Positions 1 through 6,435 of a DNA stretch of 20,890 nucleotides are shown here, piece by piece. How positions within the stretch are numbered: position 1 is the stretch's first letter; the number at the start of each line of letters is the position of its first letter. The DNA comes from a virus: positions 1 through 20,890 of the IMG/VR virus record IMGVR_UViG_3300025645_000562; one strand, 5' to 3'. The notes beneath the pieces are model-generated. The model saw only the letters and a list, made by a program, of their open reading frames with translations, was not told the origin of the DNA and searched no databases. Position numbers and translations under genes: made by a program.

Positions 1-2
1 CA

Positions 3-416
3 GAATCTGCGCATGCCCATACGCAAAATCTGCGCATCCATAACCTTGGAAATAATAACCTTGGAAATATAACCAGTAATAATACGGCCATTTTTGATGA
101 TTTATGGAAGATCTATCCAAAGAAGGTCGGCAAGGGCCAAGCTCGCAAAGCATTCAACGCAGCACTGCGCAAGGTAGACTATGACAAGATCCATGCAGCG
201 CTGATCGATTACGTCAAAGCATCTACCGGCAAGGACAAGAAATATCTGCCGCATCTCTCAACATGGCTAAACGGTGAGCGATGGGATGACGAGCTGCAAG
301 AACAATCTTTGCAAGACATGACCAGCGAGCAGCAAATGCAAGCAATACTCGGAAGCAGCGAGCCTTCAATAAATCAATCGCTCCTGGCAAAGTATGATAG
401 AAAGCTGATCCAATGA
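3..416 (+). CDS. Phage replication initiator, C-terminal part (5' end outside window)
   Basis: An open frame runs from the left edge to the TGA at 414-416, with no start visible, so only the last 137 residues are seen. After an Asn-rich linker encoded by repeats (to about position 92), the tail reads FDDLWKIYPKKVGKGQARKAF, later HLSTWLNGERWDDE. From family knowledge, the F-x-x-(F/L)W-x-x-YPKKVGK...(H)xxTWLNxxRW pattern is the conserved C-terminal domain of phage and prophage replication initiators that carry a winged-helix N-terminus and act like lambda O, binding the origin and recruiting the replisome. The N-terminal DNA-binding part is not in view, so that part is inferred. The next gene starts inside the stop codon (ATGA at 413-416), suggesting translational coupling. 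Codons are strikingly poor in T, as in the next two genes and unlike everything after 1820. Confidence 0.72.
   Translation, partial: ESAHAHTQNLRIHNLGNNNLGNITSNNTAIFDDLWKIYPKKVGKGQARKAFNAALRKVDYDKIHAALIDYVKASTGKDKKYLPHLSTWLNGERWDDELQEQSLQDMTSEQQMQAILGSSEPSINQSLLAKYDRKLIQ
4..42 (+). repeat. Two-copy direct repeat, AATCTGCGCAT...CCATA
   Basis: The 11-mer AATCTGCGCAT occurs at 4-14 and again at 27-37, 23 bp apart. In both copies it is followed within two to four bases by CCATA (17-21 and 38-42). It lies in the coding frame of the replication initiator, in a low-complexity linker. Iterons within an initiator gene are the arrangement seen in the lambda origin; an origin role here is an inference. 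Confidence 0.6.
41..70 (+). repeat. 15-bp tandem repeat with palindromic CCTTGG core
   Basis: TAACCTTGGAAATAA (41-55) is followed directly by TAACCTTGGAAATAT (56-70), 14 of 15 identical. Each copy has a CCTTGG palindrome at its centre. It encodes the repeated peptide NLGNN/NLGNI in the replication initiator. Possible iterons for the protein encoded by the same gene; only two copies are visible and the array may extend left of the window. Confidence 0.65.
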
Positions 417-961
417 AATATCAGGACAGAACACGCACCATCGGCGCATGGCTCCAAGAAGAACTCAAGCGCTACGATGTACCAGCAAACCACACGCCAG
501 AACGAGCAAGGCAAGAAATGGACGCAATGGTTGAAGACATCAACTCCGAAATACCCAGCGATGTCCAGCAATCCAGCCTAGATCATATTCTCAGCAAGAT
601 GTCGCAAGACATCCGAAAAAACACCCGCAGCCGATCATGGCCCACAATCTACACGCTCACCAAAGCCGCGCAGAAGTGCAGCGAAACACAAGCAACAGCA
701 ATCACAGGGCCAAGACAGCCGCATATCTTCGACAGCGACAGCATCGCAGCCAGCCGCATAAATGCCGGTGAACCAGTAGCAGAAAGCTACATCAACGGAT
801 CAGGCGCAACCAGGCTAATCGATAAGAAGCTGATAAAACCAGAGCAACTAGAGCCATACAAAAACTATCTCAAGGAAGGGATGAAGATGTATGCAACGCC
901 AGAGCCGGTGAAGTACACCGAGCACGATCCAGAACCGGAACTGATGGAGAACCCGTACTGA
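413..961 (+). CDS. Replication-module protein of unknown function (182 aa)
   Basis: A 182-residue acidic, hydrophilic protein with no signal peptide or membrane segment. An N-terminal helical part (residues 1-75) ends in SRSWPTIYTLTKAAQ; a middle part reads AASRINAGEPVAESYINGSG; the tail is rich in Pro and Glu. I recall a similar SWPT...INAARIxxGEPV layout in proteins encoded directly after replication initiators in alphaproteobacterial phages, where lambda P-type helicase loaders also sit. A loader role is therefore a guess from position; no Walker motif is present. It overlaps the initiator's stop (ATGA, 413-416), and its own TGA (959-961) shares one base with the next ATG. It is very T-poor: for example 661-720 holds only two T on the + strand. 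Confidence 0.7.
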   Translation: MKYQDRTRTIGAWLQEELKRYDVPANHTPERARQEMDAMVEDINSEIPSDVQQSSLDHILSKMSQDIRKNTRSRSWPTIYTLTKAAQKCSETQATAITGPRQPHIFDSDSIAASRINAGEPVAESYINGSGATRLIDKKLIKPEQLEPYKNYLKEGMKMYATPEPVKYTEHDPEPELMENPY

Positions 962-1566
962 TGAGACCAAAGCAGCTCAAAGCCAAAGACCTAAGAGCGT
1001 TTGCAGTCGTGCCAATCAGGGCGTTAAAAGATCCACGCATAACGCCGTCAGCATTCAGAGTGCTCGCGGCGTTTTGTTCCTACGCCGATCACATGGGAAG
1101 AACATTCGTAAGCCAAACAAGGATAGGACAAGACATAGGGCTGTCACAGTCAGGTGTAAGCTGGCACGTAGTAAGGCTGCGCAAGTTCGGATACATAACG
1201 TTCTGTAAGCCGTTCTACAAAGACCAGAAGAGCACCAGCAACCGCATAGTTTACGATCAACAGGTCAAGTTAGAGGAAACCATACGCTCCAGGCTAACGC
1301 CTAAACAGCAAATCCAATTAGGTGAAGCTGAGGCAATGCTAAAACAGGAAGGTAACATGCGCCTAACTGGTATTAACACGGCAGTCGAACTGGACCTATC
1401 TAAGCTAGTGGATGAATTTCAGTGTTTGACGACAGAGTTTTTCACACGGGCAATAGCTGACGGCTGGGTAATCAAGCCGGAGAAGCTCAGACGCGGCGCA
1501 GCAATGCTGGCAAACCAAGCAATAGAGCTGCTGAGCGAGCCGTACAGCGACGAAAGGGCAGCTTGA
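961..1566 (+). CDS. Winged-helix DNA-binding protein, probable replication or regulatory protein
   Basis: A 201-residue protein. Residues about 25-85 read as a winged helix-turn-helix: ITPSAFRVLAAFCSYADH, then TRIGQDIGLSQSGVSWHVVR with a recognition-helix pattern, then the wing FGYITFCKP. This resembles the wHTH_36-like domain at the N-terminus of many phage and plasmid replication proteins. The C-terminal half (105-201) is helical, with no catalytic motif that I recognise. It starts in the stop of the previous gene (TGATG at 959-963). It could be a second origin-binding factor, a regulator of the module, or an accessory initiator; the sequence does not decide. It is the last gene with the A/C-rich codon pattern. 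Confidence 0.75.
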   Translation: MRPKQLKAKDLRAFAVVPIRALKDPRITPSAFRVLAAFCSYADHMGRTFVSQTRIGQDIGLSQSGVSWHVVRLRKFGYITFCKPFYKDQKSTSNRIVYDQQVKLEETIRSRLTPKQQIQLGEAEAMLKQEGNMRLTGINTAVELDLSKLVDEFQCLTTEFFTRAIADGWVIKPEKLRRGAAMLANQAIELLSEPYSDERAA

Positions 1567-1625
1567 TGACCATACCTAGCCTGATGACATCTAACGGCAC
1601 TGAGCGAGCAGGATATGCAAAGTCG

Positions 1626-1641
1626 CATAATACACATTATG
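1626..1641. repeat. Perfect 6-bp inverted repeat, CATAAT-ACAC-ATTATG
   Basis: CATAAT (1626-1631) and ATTATG (1636-1641) are exact reverse complements separated by four bases, in an AT-rich stretch (about 1626-1652) just after the wHTH gene. This could be an operator for that wHTH protein or part of an origin; both are inferences. Confidence 0.5.
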
Positions 1642-1709
1642 TTAAATAAATCTGCACAGCCACCGGCATACGTTTCCAGACTGGCCTGGCAAAACATCGA
1701 GGCCCCGTC

Positions 1710-1767
1710 AGCAGGCAATTGCTCGGATTTGCAGCAATCGACCCCTTGCCCCCCGCCCCCGCCTGCT
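1710..1767. other. Nested inverted repeats enclosing a C-rich (minus-strand G-rich) tract
   Basis: AGCAGGC (1710-1716) pairs perfectly with GCCTGCT (1761-1767). Inside it, ATTGCT (1718-1723) pairs perfectly with AGCAAT (1733-1738) around a nine-base loop. The remaining inner stretch 1742-1760 has C runs of four, six and five, giving a G-rich minus strand with possible G-quadruplex potential. It may act as RNA leader structure for the following operon or as DNA structure at an origin. Confidence 0.45.
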
Positions 1768-1819
1768 ATGGCTGCATATCCCCACGAAACTATTTTCCAA
1801 AAAACCATGAGGTCGTCTA

Positions 1820-2005
1820 ATGCCCCGCAAGTTTAAGTCTGTTGCCAAGGATCGCAAGTCAGGCATTCCTAAGAAGTACGTTAGTGGATCTGGTGATGCG
1901 GAAGGTACGCGCAAGGAAATATTGAGAACACGAGCGTTATATCGTATGGGTAAGTTGACTGGTTCTGATATGGACCGGATTTCTAGGGAAAGGTCTAAGC
2001 GATGA
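1820..2005 (+). CDS. Small basic phage protein, unknown function (61 aa)
   Basis: A 61-residue, Lys/Arg-rich protein of the pattern MPRKFKSVAKDRKSGIPKKY...TRKEILRTRALYR. I associate the 'GIPKKYVSG...EI.RT' pattern with short hypothetical proteins of cyanophages and other marine phages; their role is not known to me. GAGG at 1809-1812 lies seven bases before the ATG and supports this start. It is the first gene with the G/T-rich codon pattern. The next gene overlaps its stop (ATGA at 2002-2005), making it the head of a chain of tiny coupled genes. Confidence 0.7.
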   Translation: MPRKFKSVAKDRKSGIPKKYVSGSGDAEGTRKEILRTRALYRMGKLTGSDMDRISRERSKR

Positions 2006-2205
2006 AGTTACCTGCTAATTATGTTAAGGCTGTTGGTGGTCGGGTGAAGGCTGAGAAGATTTATAAGCGTGGGCTGGGTGCTTATTACAGCTCTGGTTCA
2101 CGTCCGAAGGTTTCTGCGCATCAGTGGGCGATGGGTAGATTGAAGAGTGCTGCTACTGGCAAGGGTGGTGCTCGTAAGGCTGATGCTGATATATTGAAAG
2201 GATAG
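2002..2205 (+). CDS. Small 'YYSSGSRP' phage protein, unknown function (67 aa)
   Basis: A 67-residue basic protein. The centre reads AYYSSGSRPKVSAHQWAMGRL, then a Gly/Lys-rich tail ending in DADILKG. The motif (Y/F)-S-S-G-S-R-P followed by a small helix with W-x-x-x-R and a basic tail is one I know from short, widespread phage proteins of unknown role. It overlaps the preceding stop by four bases (ATGA), so it is probably translated by coupling. No cysteines, signal peptide or membrane segment. A DNA- or capsid-associated role would fit its charge but is speculative. Confidence 0.75.
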   Translation: MKLPANYVKAVGGRVKAEKIYKRGLGAYYSSGSRPKVSAHQWAMGRLKSAATGKGGARKADADILKG

Positions 2206-2209
2206 TGCT

Positions 2210-2287
2210 ATGCCTAAAGGAAAAGGAACGTATGGAACGAAGGTTGGTAGACCTCCCAAGCAAAAACCTAGCGGAAAGAAAAAATAA
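2210..2287 (+). CDS. 25-residue basic mini-protein with AT-hook-like GRPPK
   Basis: The frame from ATG 2210 to TAA 2285-2287 encodes 25 residues, beginning MPKGKGTYGTKVGRPPKQK and ending in a poly-Lys tail. A good Shine-Dalgarno (AAAGGA, 2197-2202) lies seven bases before it, and its stop overlaps the next start (TAATG). The pattern MPKGxGTYGxKxGRPPKKK recurs in my memory of aquatic-phage genomes, where it is often left unannotated. The GRPPK core resembles the GRP core of AT-hook minor-groove binders, so DNA binding is plausible but unproven. It fills the space between its neighbours exactly, which supports it as a real gene. Confidence 0.72.
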   Translation: MPKGKGTYGTKVGRPPKQKPSGKKK

Positions 2288-2619
2288 TGGCTGAAAATAT
2301 TTCTGATATAAAGGCGAAGCTTTTGTCTGTTGAGAGGCAGTTTAGCAAGGGCTATGGTGTTTATTCATTGGATCCAGACGAAAAGGGTCAGTATGGCGCA
2401 TTTTTGCGTAAGTATAACTTAAAGCCGACAATGGAAGCTCTTAATCGTGTTAGCTCGGTCAAAGCATCTTTAAGCAAGGATTCTTCACGGCAAGAAATTC
2501 AAGCTGCTCAAGGCTTAATAAAAAAATGGCATGCCCCCTTATCGGAATTAGACAAAATGAAAGAGCGTGATAAAAAAACACTTAAACGTGCTGCGACTAG
2601 GCGTATGGGAAGGAAGTGA
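2287..2619 (+). CDS. Hypothetical helical protein (110 aa)
   Basis: A 110-residue, highly charged protein with a basic C-terminus (TLKRAATRRMGRK). It appears mostly helical, lacks cysteine and shows no motif I recognise. It begins in the stop codon of the mini-protein gene (TAATG at 2285-2289), and its own TGA (2617-2619) overlaps the GTG start of the next gene. It belongs to the same cluster of tiny basic genes. The pattern is compatible with a DNA-binding or virion-internal protein, but nothing in the sequence shows this. Confidence 0.65.
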   Translation: MAENISDIKAKLLSVERQFSKGYGVYSLDPDEKGQYGAFLRKYNLKPTMEALNRVSSVKASLSKDSSRQEIQAAQGLIKKWHAPLSELDKMKERDKKTLKRAATRRMGRK

Positions 2620-2774
2620 TTACTTGGCACGTTTATCCTGATGGATTACGGGTATGGCGTGATGGTGAGTTAGTTGCTGTAATAGGGCATGATTTGTTTC
2701 CCCAGCTTATTGAGCAGTTGGCGAGGGGTTTGCTGGATAAGTCTCGTAGCAATATCACTGATATGCATTCATAG
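2616..2774 (+). CDS. Small conserved-type phage protein with GTG start (52 aa)
   Basis: A frame beginning at GTG 2616, overlapping the previous stop as GTGA (2616-2619), runs to TAG 2772-2774 and encodes 52 residues. It starts (M/V)ITWHVYPDGLRVWRDGEL and continues VAVIGHDLFPQLIEQLARGLL. Residues 3-24 look like a small beta hairpin and residues 27-42 an amphipathic helix. The 'WHVYPDGxRVxRDGELVA...FPxLIxxLAR' pattern is one I associate with short phage proteins encoded near structural genes. Function unknown. The overlap, the coherent hydrophobic pattern and the tight fit argue for a real gene despite its size and GTG start. Confidence 0.65.
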   Translation: MITWHVYPDGLRVWRDGELVAVIGHDLFPQLIEQLARGLLDKSRSNITDMHS

Positions 2775-2803
2775 GTATTGTAATATCACTTGTGTAATGT
2801 TAT
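2774..2803. repeat. Short repeats shared with the gap at 3439-3470 (left copy)
   Basis: This gap before the methyltransferase gene contains GGTATTG (2774-2780), TTGTAATATC (2778-2787), ACTTGTG (2788-2794) and GTTAT (2799-2803). All four recur, in a different order, in the gap after the methyltransferase gene. AATATCACT also occurs twice nearby (2751-2759 and 2782-2790). They could be paired regulatory sites or recombination scars. Confidence 0.5.
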
Positions 2804-2833
2804 CGCTTATCTACAATGTTGGAGAGCGATGTT

Positions 2834-3439
2834 ATGATAAAATCATGTGAGTATGACCAGACTGAGATATTGAGCGGCATTATGCAGCTTTGTGGTATTG
2901 AGCGCTTTGACGCTGATATTACCTATGGCAATGGGATGTTTTACAAGCATCTTCCTCAGCCAGAGCTAAAGTTTGATATAGATCCTCAGCTTGATGGGGT
3001 TATTGAGGCTAGTAGCGATAGCCTTCCTGTGGATGATGCGTCCTTGCGGTCTTTGGTGTTTGACCCGCCGTTTATGACTTATGTGAGGGCTGGCAGATCT
3101 GGTAATGGCAACATGGTCATGGCCAAGAGGTTTGGCGGTTACTGGCGTTATGATGAGCTTGAGGATCACTACAAGTCCACGCTTAGAGAGTGTGGCAGGG
3201 CTCTAGGAAAGAAAGGCATTATGGTGTTTAAGTGTCAGGACATTGTTCACAATCATCGCCTTCATCCTACGCATATATTTATTACTGAGTGGATGCGTGA
3301 ATGGTTCCGTTTGAAGGATTTGTTTGTGCTTGCCGCTAAGAGCCGCATGCCAATACCTCAAAAGCAGGGTGAGCGTAAGAAGGTTCAGAAGCATGCGCGT
3401 ATCCATCATTCGTATTTTATGGTACTGGAGAGATTGTAA
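2834..3439 (+). CDS. DNA methyltransferase, DPPF type (probable N6-adenine or N4-cytosine)
   Basis: A 201-residue SAM-dependent DNA methyltransferase. It shows an N-terminal glycine loop DADITYGNGMFY (residues 27-37 from this start), an acidic FDIDP after the next strand (47-51) and the catalytic motif IV FDPPF (76-80). DPPF is the (D/N/S)PP(Y/F) signature of amino-methyltransferases. The C-terminal part, with GIMVFKCQD, H-x-FITEW and HARIHHSYF, matches small phage methyltransferases. The motif order (I before IV) and lack of a target-recognition domain suggest a stand-alone enzyme that marks phage DNA, perhaps against host restriction. I prefer ATG 2834, with GGAG at 2821-2824, over the in-frame ATG at 2816, which has no Shine-Dalgarno. 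No endonuclease partner is nearby. Confidence 0.82.
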   Translation: MIKSCEYDQTEILSGIMQLCGIERFDADITYGNGMFYKHLPQPELKFDIDPQLDGVIEASSDSLPVDDASLRSLVFDPPFMTYVRAGRSGNGNMVMAKRFGGYWRYDELEDHYKSTLRECGRALGKKGIMVFKCQDIVHNHRLHPTHIFITEWMREWFRLKDLFVLAAKSRMPIPQKQGERKKVQKHARIHHSYFMVLERL

Positions 3440-3470
3440 CTTGTGGTATTGCTTTATTTGTAATATCGTT
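3439..3470. repeat. Short repeats shared with the gap at 2774-2803 (right copy)
   Basis: Just after the methyltransferase stop lie ACTTGTG (3439-3445), GGTATTG (3445-3451), TTGTAATATC (3458-3467) and GTTAT (3468-3472). The ten-base TTGTAATATC is identical in both gaps. The rest of the gap to 3502 shows only a strong Shine-Dalgarno (AGGAGG) for the next gene. I see no convincing promoter. Confidence 0.5.
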
Positions 3471-3502
3471 ATTGAACTTGCAACGCTGTATAGGAGGAAA
3501 TA

Positions 3503-3742
3503 ATGTCTAAGCGTTTTAGTGTTGTGCAAGCCAAGGAAGTGCCTGGTCGGGATAAGCCGGTTTGGTTACGTCATGGGATTGCTTTTCAGAATGACAAGGG
3601 TATCAGCATTAAGTTGGAGGGATTGCCGCTTCCGAATAAGGAGGGTGAGGTCTGGTTGAAGCTGTTTGAAGATGATGGCTCACGTTCTCAGCAACCTTCT
3701 CGTGCCGATACGGATACGGGCGGTGATAGTATTCCGTTCTGA
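3503..3742 (+). CDS. Small phage protein with SSB-like acidic tail DSIPF (79 aa)
   Basis: A 79-residue protein preceded by a strong AGGAGG. Residues 1-55 read as a small beta-rich domain (FSVVQAKEVPG...KPVWLRHGIAF...GISIKLEGLPLP...EVWLKLFE). A short disordered linker leads to the C-terminal DTGGDSIPF. Bacterial and phage single-stranded DNA-binding proteins end in an acidic DDDIPF-type tip that recruits replication and repair partners; the tail here is close to it. The core is too short for a standard OB fold and I cannot assign it, so a partner-docking or DNA-binding role is only an inference. It sits between the methyltransferase and a Cys-cluster gene. Confidence 0.68.
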   Translation: MSKRFSVVQAKEVPGRDKPVWLRHGIAFQNDKGISIKLEGLPLPNKEGEVWLKLFEDDGSRSQQPSRADTDTGGDSIPF

Positions 3743-3753
3743 GGAGGGGCGTT

Positions 3754-4194
3754 ATGAAAAAAGAGACTAACTACTACGATGAAGAAACTCTTGAGATTGC
3801 CAAAAGGCTGAAAGGCTATGTAGCATATCGCCCGAACATTATGATGGAGTTGGACGAGGGCACGGATAATCATCAAATTTATGTCGCTAGTTCATACCAT
3901 TCGGCAAATAATGAGAGGTGTGCAAATTGCAAGTTTTATGAGCGTTACACTTATGACTGCGCGAATCATGACAATTTCAACTGGGAGGCTACAGAGGAAA
4001 TAACGCACGGAAAATGCCTTCGTTACCCGCCACAATTCCAGAATCATGGTGAGCAGGGTTTTCAGCCAACCGTTGAAAATATCATGTGGTGTGGTGAGTA
4101 TGTTCGCGCTCCTGATAATATCTATATCAATGGCGCTCATGGTATTCCAGCTTCATTGTTGAAGGATGAAGATGAGCAGAAAAAAAGAGGATAA
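3754..4194 (+). CDS. Cys-cluster (putative metal-binding) phage protein (146 aa)
   Basis: A 146-residue protein with a good GGAGG before its ATG. The core has four spaced cysteines in a recognisable frame: CANCKFYE, then GKCLRYPPQ, then P-x-x-x-x-IMWCGEY; one further cysteine lies in between (YDCANH). The pattern C-x2-C-(K/R)-(F/Y)...G-x-C-x-(R/N)-x-PP...WCGE(Y/W) recurs in many short phage proteins and presumably binds zinc or another metal. Function unknown to me. Its C-terminus overlaps the terminase small-subunit start (4172-4194), so the two are probably co-translated. Confidence 0.72.
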   Translation: MKKETNYYDEETLEIAKRLKGYVAYRPNIMMELDEGTDNHQIYVASSYHSANNERCANCKFYERYTYDCANHDNFNWEATEEITHGKCLRYPPQFQNHGEQGFQPTVENIMWCGEYVRAPDNIYINGAHGIPASLLKDEDEQKKRG

Positions 4195-4600
4195 GATAAA
4201 ACCTATCCCGCCGGTTGGTCGGTTTGGCGGTGCGCGTTTGTTGCAGCGTCGAATTGGCCGCTCGGAGACATTAGCTCAGAATAAAGAGGCTGTGGCTACT
4301 GAGCTGATAGCAATGGGTACGGCTCGTATTACTGACATCATTGATCTGCACAGTGGCCAGGTAAAGCCTTTGGAGGATATTCCTGATGAGGCTTTGGCTT
4401 CGATCAAGAAGGTGACTGTTGGCCAGCATGGCACGACGATAGAAATGTTTGACAAGGTAAGTGTTCTGCGCGTGTTGGCTAAGGCTAGTGGCTTGCTCGA
4501 TGTGGAAAAGAATGTGGACAAGCCTTCGATTGTTGGGATCAACATGAAGGGGCCAGACATTACCACAACGTATGAGGCAGATGATGACGACAGATATTAA
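4172..4600 (+). CDS. terS: Terminase small subunit (putative)
   Basis: A 142-residue protein encoded shortly before the large terminase. After a basic, disordered N-terminus it has a helical segment (ATELIAMGTARITDIIDL), a short turn, and the pattern DEALASIKKV...TTIEMFDKVSVLRVLAKASGLL. The last part matches the C-terminal region I know from Terminase_2-like small subunits (strand pair, then a K-x-x-x-L-x-x-L-A-K-x-x-G-L helix). TerS recognises the packaging site and regulates the ATPase. The N-terminal HTH usual in the family is not obvious. ATG 4172 is favoured over ATG 4166 because AAGGA (4162-4166) lies five bases upstream. The Asp-rich tail is encoded over the next gene's start. Confidence 0.62.
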   Translation: MSRKKEDKIKPIPPVGRFGGARLLQRRIGRSETLAQNKEAVATELIAMGTARITDIIDLHSGQVKPLEDIPDEALASIKKVTVGQHGTTIEMFDKVSVLRVLAKASGLLDVEKNVDKPSIVGINMKGPDITTTYEADDDDRY

Positions 4601-4919
4601 GAATGATCTACTCAGGGCTTGTAACTATTATGAAAATTTTGGGGCCAGAGAGACTGCGGATGAAGCAAAGAGCTGTGCTATGGTGTTTTCTCCGCGACGA
4701 ATAGATCAAGTATTTTGTTGCCCTGAGTGCAAATGGGCATTTCACGCAAAAACAAGAACCAAGACCTATAAGCGACAACCTGTGCATAAGAGTTTAAAAA
4801 ACCGCATTCAGGATTTAGAAGCTTGCTTGGAAGAGATCGAGCGAGTTGCTCTGGTGAGCGAGGGTGTTGAGTGGTATGCAATGATGGCTCGTAAGGGATT
4901 GGACGCTGAATATGACTGA
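4584..4919 (+). CDS. Zinc-finger-like small protein between TerS and TerL (111 aa)
   Basis: A 111-residue protein. Its middle, SCAMVFSPRRIDQVFCCPECKWAFH, resembles the phage finger C-x2-C-x3-F-x-P-x-R-x-D-x-x-(F/Y)-C-s-x2-C-(R/K)-x-A. The second cysteine of the usual first pair is missing, so the finger may be degenerate or use another ligand. The C-terminal part (LKNRIQDLEACLEEIERVAL) is a predicted coiled coil. Small finger proteins beside terminase genes are common in phages, but their job is not known. ATG 4584 is chosen because GAGG at 4574-4577 is six bases upstream; ATG 4572 and 4581 are possible. It overlaps TerS by 17 bases and TerL by eight. Confidence 0.65.
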   Translation: MTTDIKNDLLRACNYYENFGARETADEAKSCAMVFSPRRIDQVFCCPECKWAFHAKTRTKTYKRQPVHKSLKNRIQDLEACLEEIERVALVSEGVEWYAMMARKGLDAEYD

Positions 4920-6435
4920 TCTTCCCAGCATGAACTTGGATTTTTCCAAGTCTGCAACGGTTTGGAAGTTTCTACACGATAAATCTTTTGTTCGCGGTCT
5001 GATGGGGCCGGTTGGATCTGGCAAGTCATACGGCTGCGCTGCTGAAATAATGCTCAAGGCTGTTCAGCAAAAGCCCTCGCCGCGTGATGGCATTCGGTAT
5101 TCTCGGTTTGTAATCGTGCGCAACACCTATCCAGAGCTAAGAACAACAACGATTAAGACCTGGCAAGAGTTATTCCCAGAGGATGTATGGGGTGCAATGC
5201 GCTGGCAACCGCCTATCACGCATCATCTAAAGCTGCCTTCGAGGGAAGGTGCGCCTGGTATAGACTGCGAAGTTATCTTCATGGCTCTTTCTACCCCGCA
5301 AGATGTAAGGAAGCTGCTGTCGCTGGAGCTAACAGGGGCATGGGTAAACGAGGCCCGCGAGCTGCCGAAGGCTGTGATCGACGGGCTGACGCACCGTGTT
5401 GGCCGTTATCCTACTCAGTCTGACGGTGGCGCGTCCTGGTATGGCATTATCATGGACACTAACCCGCCTGACGCCGATCACTGGTGGCATGAGCTGGCAG
5501 AGAAGAATCCTATTGGCGGTCGGTTTCCGTGGAAGTTCTACCGGCAACCTGGCGGTGTGCTGGAGGTAAGCGCTAAGGATCTACCAGAAAACCCAGAGGC
5601 CAATGGGTTTGTGTTCTCTGGTGCTAAGTGGTGGATGGTTAATCCCTCTGCTGAAAACAAGGTTCATCTGCCTAGCGGGTACTATGAGCAGCTTCTCGGC
5701 GGTAAGAATGCTGATTGGATTAGGTGCTATGCTGAGGGCAAGTACACGTTTGTACAAGAAGGGCGTCCGGTATGGCCTGAGTACGATGATGATATGATGT
5801 CAGGTGATGTCACTTATGACCCACAATATCCCTTGCAGATCGGCGTTGACTTTGGTTTGACGCCAGCCGCTATCTTCGGGCAGCGTACATCTGGTGGTGC
5901 CTGGAAGGTTCTGGATGAGCTTGTGACGTTTGACATGGGGCTTGAGAGGTTTGGACAAGAGCTACTGGCTAAGATCGCTGCGAGCTTCAATAAGGCTGAG
6001 GTGGTAATCTGGGGCGATCCCGCCGGTAACAAGCGCGATGAGATCTATGAGGTGACTGCCTTCGATCACTTGCGCTCGATTGGTTTCAAAGCATCTCCGA
6101 CCGATAGTAACGCCTTTAACGTGCGCCGTGAGGCCGCTGCTGCGCCTATGAACCGGCTGGTGGGTGGTAAGCCTGGGCTAATGATAAACAAGAAGTGTTT
6201 GCGGGTGCGAAAGTCTTTGGCTGGTGGTTATTTTTTCAAGCGTCAATCTCTCGGTGCTGGCCAGGAGCGGTTCAAGGACATGCCGGTAAAGAATGAGCAT
6301 TCTCACTGCGGGGATGCGTTTGGCTATTTAATGCTGGGTGGTGGTGAGCAGCGTCGATTGCGGCGCGGTAACTACGGCAACAGCTTTGCCGGTGGTCAGA
6401 CGTTTAATGCCGCAACAGACTTCGAGATCTTCTAA
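4912..6435 (+). CDS. terL: Terminase large subunit (packaging ATPase and nuclease)
   Basis: A 507-residue protein with both terminase domains. ATPase: Walker A GPVGSGKS at residues 32-39; an R-NTYPELRTTT segment (70-80); Walker B-like strand TGAWVNEARELP (141-152) with Glu147. Nuclease (RNase H fold): IGVDFGLTPAA with Asp313, VVIWGDPAGNK with Asp369, and HCGDAFGYLM with Asp468, the expected three acids. The length fits the family. It translocates DNA into the procapsid through the portal and cuts the concatemer. Packaging strategy cannot be read from the sequence. It starts within the previous gene and its TAA shares a base with the next ATG (TAATG at 6433-6437). Confidence 0.95.
   Translation: MTDLPSMNLDFSKSATVWKFLHDKSFVRGLMGPVGSGKSYGCAAEIMLKAVQQKPSPRDGIRYSRFVIVRNTYPELRTTTIKTWQELFPEDVWGAMRWQPPITHHLKLPSREGAPGIDCEVIFMALSTPQDVRKLLSLELTGAWVNEARELPKAVIDGLTHRVGRYPTQSDGGASWYGIIMDTNPPDADHWWHELAEKNPIGGRFPWKFYRQPGGVLEVSAKDLPENPEANGFVFSGAKWWMVNPSAENKVHLPSGYYEQLLGGKNADWIRCYAEGKYTFVQEGRPVWPEYDDDMMSGDVTYDPQYPLQIGVDFGLTPAAIFGQRTSGGAWKVLDELVTFDMGLERFGQELLAKIAASFNKAEVVIWGDPAGNKRDEIYEVTAFDHLRSIGFKASPTDSNAFNVRREAAAAPMNRLVGGKPGLMINKKCLRVRKSLAGGYFFKRQSLGAGQERFKDMPVKNEHSHCGDAFGYLMLGGGEQRRLRRGNYGNSFAGGQTFNAATDFEIF

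Follow-up and report, generated by a model that had tools for sequence, protein, structure and literature searches.

The analysis of strand composition revealed an abrupt reversal of base use on the + strand, from A/C-rich to G/T-rich, at a conserved C-rich element in the window studied here (20,890 bases, a linear virus record from an uncultured marine phage that infects bacteria). On balance, the reversal appears to be the junction of an early unit, RepC-P413-HTH961-leader, and a late unit, with the replication origin lying elsewhere. The swap is taken to mark an early/late border more surely than an origin because the likely origin is about 1.7 kb further left, inside RepC. The first-pass annotation had attributed the asymmetry to the direction of replication, with an origin between the two compositions. 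This was borne out in part: the asymmetry is strand-specific and not of foreign character, and a GC-skew minimum was present, whereas neither an opposite maximum nor local iterons were found.

The window is a fragment of a marine podophage of roughly 32-37 kb, kin of Methylophilales phage MEP301. Among IMG/VR contigs, several were near-complete relatives, 32-37 kb long and in some cases with repeated ends. The gene order on the + strand of the window is replication genes, small variable genes, TerS, TerL, portal, capsid and tail genes (Table 1). The earlier statement that all genes lie on the + strand holds for the window but not for longer relatives, in which a block about 3-7 kb leftward is on the - strand. 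A Mu Gam-like end-protection protein is encoded in the left early arm of one of them (L117/L118, contig G014, 3890-4414, minus strand in TerL-forward orientation). MEP301 is the nearest sequenced and annotated phage; its genome of 34,774 bases was assembled as a circle (PMC8024684). It has the late gene order in common with the window phage, with identities of 69% for TerL, 63% for portal and 62% for major capsid protein. It differs in having no conserved element and only a partial HTH961 homologue, and its skew segment is weak, with 49 of 2000 shuffles reaching its value compared to 0 of 2000 for the window. A host search via TerL in prophages gave no match.

Table 1. Features of the left part of the window
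Feature	Position	Strand	Evidence or remark
Iterons 2 and 3 of the putative lambda-type origin	1..37 (copies 1-14, 24-37; start-to-start 23 nt)	+	direct repeat
RepC, C-terminal part, O-like replication initiator	3..416	+	phrog_270 E 9e-23
AT-rich tract adjoining iterons, candidate unwinding element	38..107	+	69% AT vs 52.5% in the window
P413, all-helical protein, strongest A/C bias	413..961	+	
HTH961, winged-helix protein	961..1566	+	HTH_36 E 6e-8, phrog_391 E 6e-6
Noncoding A/C-rich leader	1567..1740	+	
Conserved single-copy noncoding element: C tract (ACCCCTTGCCCCCCGCCCCCGCC), then CCCCACGAAACTATTTTCCAAAAAACCATGA, ribosome-binding site	1741..1819	+	
Start of late region, G/T-rich: variable small genes and DNA methyltransferase, then TerS, TerL	1820..6435	+	
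TerS	4166-4600	+	
TerL	4912-6435	+	

All four of the earlier hand counts of bases (481-540, 661-720, 2041-2100 and 3601-3660) were exact on recount, and the sharp switch of strand asymmetry claimed from them was confirmed by block shuffles, fourfold sites and 49 distinct relatives. GC skew changed from about -0.1 to 0.06 in positions 1-1500 to between +0.25 and +0.30 in 1751-2500, and AT skew from +0.2 to +0.49 on the left to about 0 right of the switch. The strongest A/C-rich segment within 1-6400 was 1-1830, with G+T minus A+C equal to -340; block shuffles gave a mean of -75 and a minimum of -185, and none of 2000 reached the observed value. The change at third codon positions was also evident, fourfold sites being strongly biased with opposite sign on the two sides: A.46 C.32 G.19 T.03 in P413, compared with A.09 C.21 G.21 T.48 in the methyltransferase gene and A.06 C.03 G.19 T.72 in the gene at 2002. 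Far late genes had almost no skew. The flip had been placed across 1567-1819; it is present, but not spread over that range. In 97% of relatives the noncoding DNA that follows HTH961 is also A/C-rich, and the turn falls at about 1815-1830, the end of the element. The cargo between the element and TerS (1820-4160), G/T-rich on the + strand, varies among close relatives and encodes small basic proteins and a DNA methyltransferase.

To place the flip in the wider group, 49 distinct contigs were aligned on the conserved element and the keto excess, (G+T minus A+C) per base, was calculated. It was negative in the 250 bp left of the element in 97% of contigs and positive 250-500 bp right of it in 98%. 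The excess was -0.17 over the 250 bp on the left; on the right it was +0.08 to +0.14 within the first 1 kb and faded to zero by about 3.5 kb. Leftward it was lowest (-0.25) at about 1-1.25 kb, was near zero again beyond about 2 kb and reached about +0.1 at 4.75-6.5 kb, where genes are on the - strand. Among left-arm genes the + strand was G/T-rich in most, regardless of gene direction, and the early + strand genes R1 and RusA, left of RepC, were G/T-rich as well (+0.19 and +0.11). Fourfold sites across genomes were near mirror-image, with A.45 C.31 G.16 T.07 in P413 (31 genomes) and A.12 C.12 G.30 T.46 in TerS. A cumulative skew plot with a single minimum and a maximum opposite it had been proposed as a check for an origin. 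In four near-complete relatives (G008, G012, G014, G020) the detrended cumulative G-C skew did have its global minimum +18 to +76 bp from the element. However, the keto walk had its maximum 2.8-4.3 kb left of its minimum, not opposite, and the position of the G-C skew maximum varied from 6.7 to 15.2 kb leftward. Because of the return to zero beyond about 2 kb and the nearby keto maximum, the A/C-rich zone (RepC-P413-HTH961 and leader) is an island of about 2 kb with two edges, the right one sharp, rather than a replichore arm.

The element, a C tract plus CCCCACGAAACTATTTTCCAAAAAACCATGAAAGG, sits at the skew turn in relatives, and the turn coincides with its right end, just before the first late gene. 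A TGAAAGG ribosome-binding site forms its 3' end; in 35 of 49 relatives, 8 nt separate this site from the start codon. The core pattern occurred once each in 56 matching viral contig stretches, and those examined belonged to this phage group. Scans of the element site for Rfam families, tRNA, sigma-70 promoters and intrinsic terminators gave no match, and no iteron family or initiator repeats were found at 1567-1819. An inverted repeat, CATAAT-ACAC-ATTATG, is located in the leader at 1626-1641 and is present in most, not all, of 18 aligned relatives; a possible role is that of an operator, for example one bound by HTH961.

Nine of the 62 element-bearing contigs begin no more than 36 bp upstream of CTATTTT in the element, the next start being at 142 bp, and L134, recovered by pattern search, is a further case. 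Together with the position of the element upstream of the terminase genes, these starts would suit a packaging cut site, the skew then arising from damage at exposed DNA ends. We regard this as extremely improbable, since the starts are scattered over about 30 bp, a pattern that a C tract difficult to sequence or a branch in the assembly would give, and most contigs read through the element; the starts may stem from a break in sequencing or assembly at the C tract. The circular assembly of MEP301 also suggests permuted or terminally repeated ends (PMC8024684), although that phage is without the element. L134 has two element copies within 1-2370, one at 1-43 and a variant at about 2289-2370. 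The first is followed by G/T-rich cargo; from about 600 the sequence is A/C-rich and encodes an O-like initiator that is largely dissimilar. This contig may have arisen by recombination, or by chimeric assembly at a shared methyltransferase gene.

The first-pass annotation had offered a module of different ancestry as the alternative explanation, the left genes having brought their own base usage. Exchange of pieces has evidently taken place, as the N-terminal part of RepC and the iteron sequence vary between lineages. Nevertheless, strand-symmetric k-mers of the island were ordinary (rank 33 of 45 other windows) and did not stand out in six relatives either, whereas its strand-specific k-mers were the most extreme in the window. 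When the window was compared with relatives whose replication proteins are about 60% identical, shared fourfold sites were at 67-82% of saturation and the bases at differing sites still tracked the local bias. The noncoding leader before the C tract was A/C-rich in 97% of 39 relatives, and a like island exists in a sister lineage whose initiator is largely dissimilar. Foreign ancestry is therefore very unlikely. Given ordinary k-mers, biased synonymous sites despite divergence and biased noncoding DNA, the sequence comparisons indicate that the bias is maintained and strand-specific, acting on the DNA strand or on RNA; neither simple inheritance nor codons alone account for it. An old inversion is unlikely as well, the bias being upheld at strongly diverged sites.

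If the bias acts on RNA, replication mRNA might be kept A/C-rich, poor in G and U and unstructured, with a C-rich Rho-loading end separating early from late transcription. In line with this, the C tract is conserved and, of the two largest C-over-G stretches on the + strand of the window, one lies in P413 (500-828) and the other at the element (1584-1875). In other relatives, however, larger stretches of this kind are found at other places, for the most part in the minus-strand early arm, and the G/T excess right of the element is left unexplained. Such selection appears improbable to us, though less so than a foreign module.

The probable origin was found at the left end of the window. The N-terminal winged-helix part of RepC lies outside the window; a homologue of full length matched phrog_270 (E 2e-43), the O-like family phrog_391 (E 6e-21) and HTH_36. 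In relatives having the full gene of this type the RepC linker holds three iterons with spacing of 22 and 23 nt, or about two helical turns, exceeding dinucleotide shuffles, and these lie about 1.73-1.9 kb left of the element. Only two are seen in the window because it starts there, iteron 1 being beyond its left end. Their position is fixed among relatives and their sequence is lineage-specific; they are not clear in G017, whose RepC N-terminal part differs. The adjoining AT-rich tract is in the top 1% of 70-nt windows, its counterparts in five relatives are 66-70% AT, and it contains tandem copies of ATAACCTTGGAAATA at 40-54 and 55-69. No skew switch of the expected kind was found at the iterons. 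The lambda origin has been described (PMC7466680, PMC3985674) and likewise has an AT-rich tract beside its iterons (PMC7466680). Both phages have iterons inside the gene for an O-like winged-helix initiator, four in lambda (annotated spacing 20, 24 and 23 nt) and three here; unlike in lambda, the sequence here shifts between lineages at a fixed position. On this anatomy, a lambda-type origin inside RepC, about 1.7 kb left of the flip, is most likely. The next gene product, P413, is not recognizably lambda P: although it adjoins RepC, as a P-like helicase loader should, it matched no family or solved structure (no meaningful PDB match) and had no homologue in annotated phages. Its predicted structure is all-helical (pLDDT 76). 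HTH961 resembles the N-terminal domain of O-like initiators, and MEP301 alone among annotated phages has a homologue. Of the lambda genes, O is mildly A/C-biased (-0.13 at fourfold sites) and P is unbiased.

The main competitor is a start or restart of replication at the element itself (1.74-1.82 kb), with a rightward fork rounding the genome and a leftward one ending about 2 kb away near RepC. The skew minimum in the four near-complete relatives would be explained, as would the mirror-image composition of fourfold sites, which diminishes with distance from the element, the effect on noncoding DNA and the G/T-rich + strand of R1, RusA and most left-arm genes of either direction. The sharp sign change and the minimum are also common to classical bacterial-origin GC-skew switches. 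Those switches differ in that the keto maximum is opposite and the biased side is not limited, as the A/C zone is here, to about 2 kb. Moreover, no iterons are present at the element, the lambda-type ones being 1.7-1.9 kb away; the element merges with the ribosome-binding site of a late gene; and far late genes are almost free of skew. We consider such a start possible but doubtful. It could be activated by iteron-bound RepC via looping, and the more specific proposal, that the C-rich element is a displaced start activated from iterons 1.7 kb away and creating two oppositely biased flanks, seems to us a little less probable still.

A sister lineage with a largely dissimilar initiator separates the two landmarks. 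Its iteron-like repeats are only about 0.5 kb from a variant element, compared with about 1.75 kb, yet here too the flip stays close to the C tract, with its minimum -126 to +132 bp away. In relatives of the sister initiator without a C tract it was weak or missing; g3503, with a sister-type initiator and no C tract, gave a keto value of -0.27 in place of +0.38. The flip thus follows the element and not the iterons, although the sister-lineage repeats are only slightly above shuffles and their assignment as iterons is weaker.

In the unit-boundary reading, which we prefer, the O-like initiator would bind the three iterons in its own linker, the adjacent AT-rich tract would open and helicase would be loaded there. 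The late unit begins with small genes, TerS and TerL, and the two units are presumed from gene order to be transcribed as such. The position of their junction is constant: it lies at the conserved C-rich leader element, immediately before the first late gene. On either side a strand-specific substitution bias of opposite sign is upheld; its cause may be a process tied to the two units, such as a strand left single-stranded in early or late transcription or in late replication. This reading agrees with the position of the element before the late genes. Against it stand the symmetry of the two flanks and the location of the GC-skew minimum at the element, both as expected of an origin; in addition, no promoter or intrinsic terminator was recognized at the element, and the G/T-richness of R1 and RusA is left unexplained. 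These two genes, early and on the same strand, also count against a pure early-versus-late gene-class rule, and a simple codon class of early genes was rejected on their account.

These data locate a likely lambda-type origin in a group of uncultured marine phages with good representation among public viral contigs, together with iterons fixed in position and lineage-variable in sequence, and a conserved element where the strand bias flips. They also suggest that a sharp skew minimum in a phage need not mark the origin bound by the initiator, although origins are often called in this way from sequence alone. If a displaced start does exist, the flip would be a trace left by locally single-stranded DNA near it; to our knowledge, a phage layout with a displaced start at a C-rich element has not been described.

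Possible hairpins were observed upstream of RepC in L111 (11630-11750) and at equivalent sites in G012, G014 and G020; one candidate, GCCCCTGCAA...TTGCAAGGGC, is found in G008 and G012. Another, a GCAGGGTCAGAATA...CCTGCCC motif, directly precedes the RepC start and is kept even where the N-terminal part of RepC is different. These sequences are possibly regulatory.
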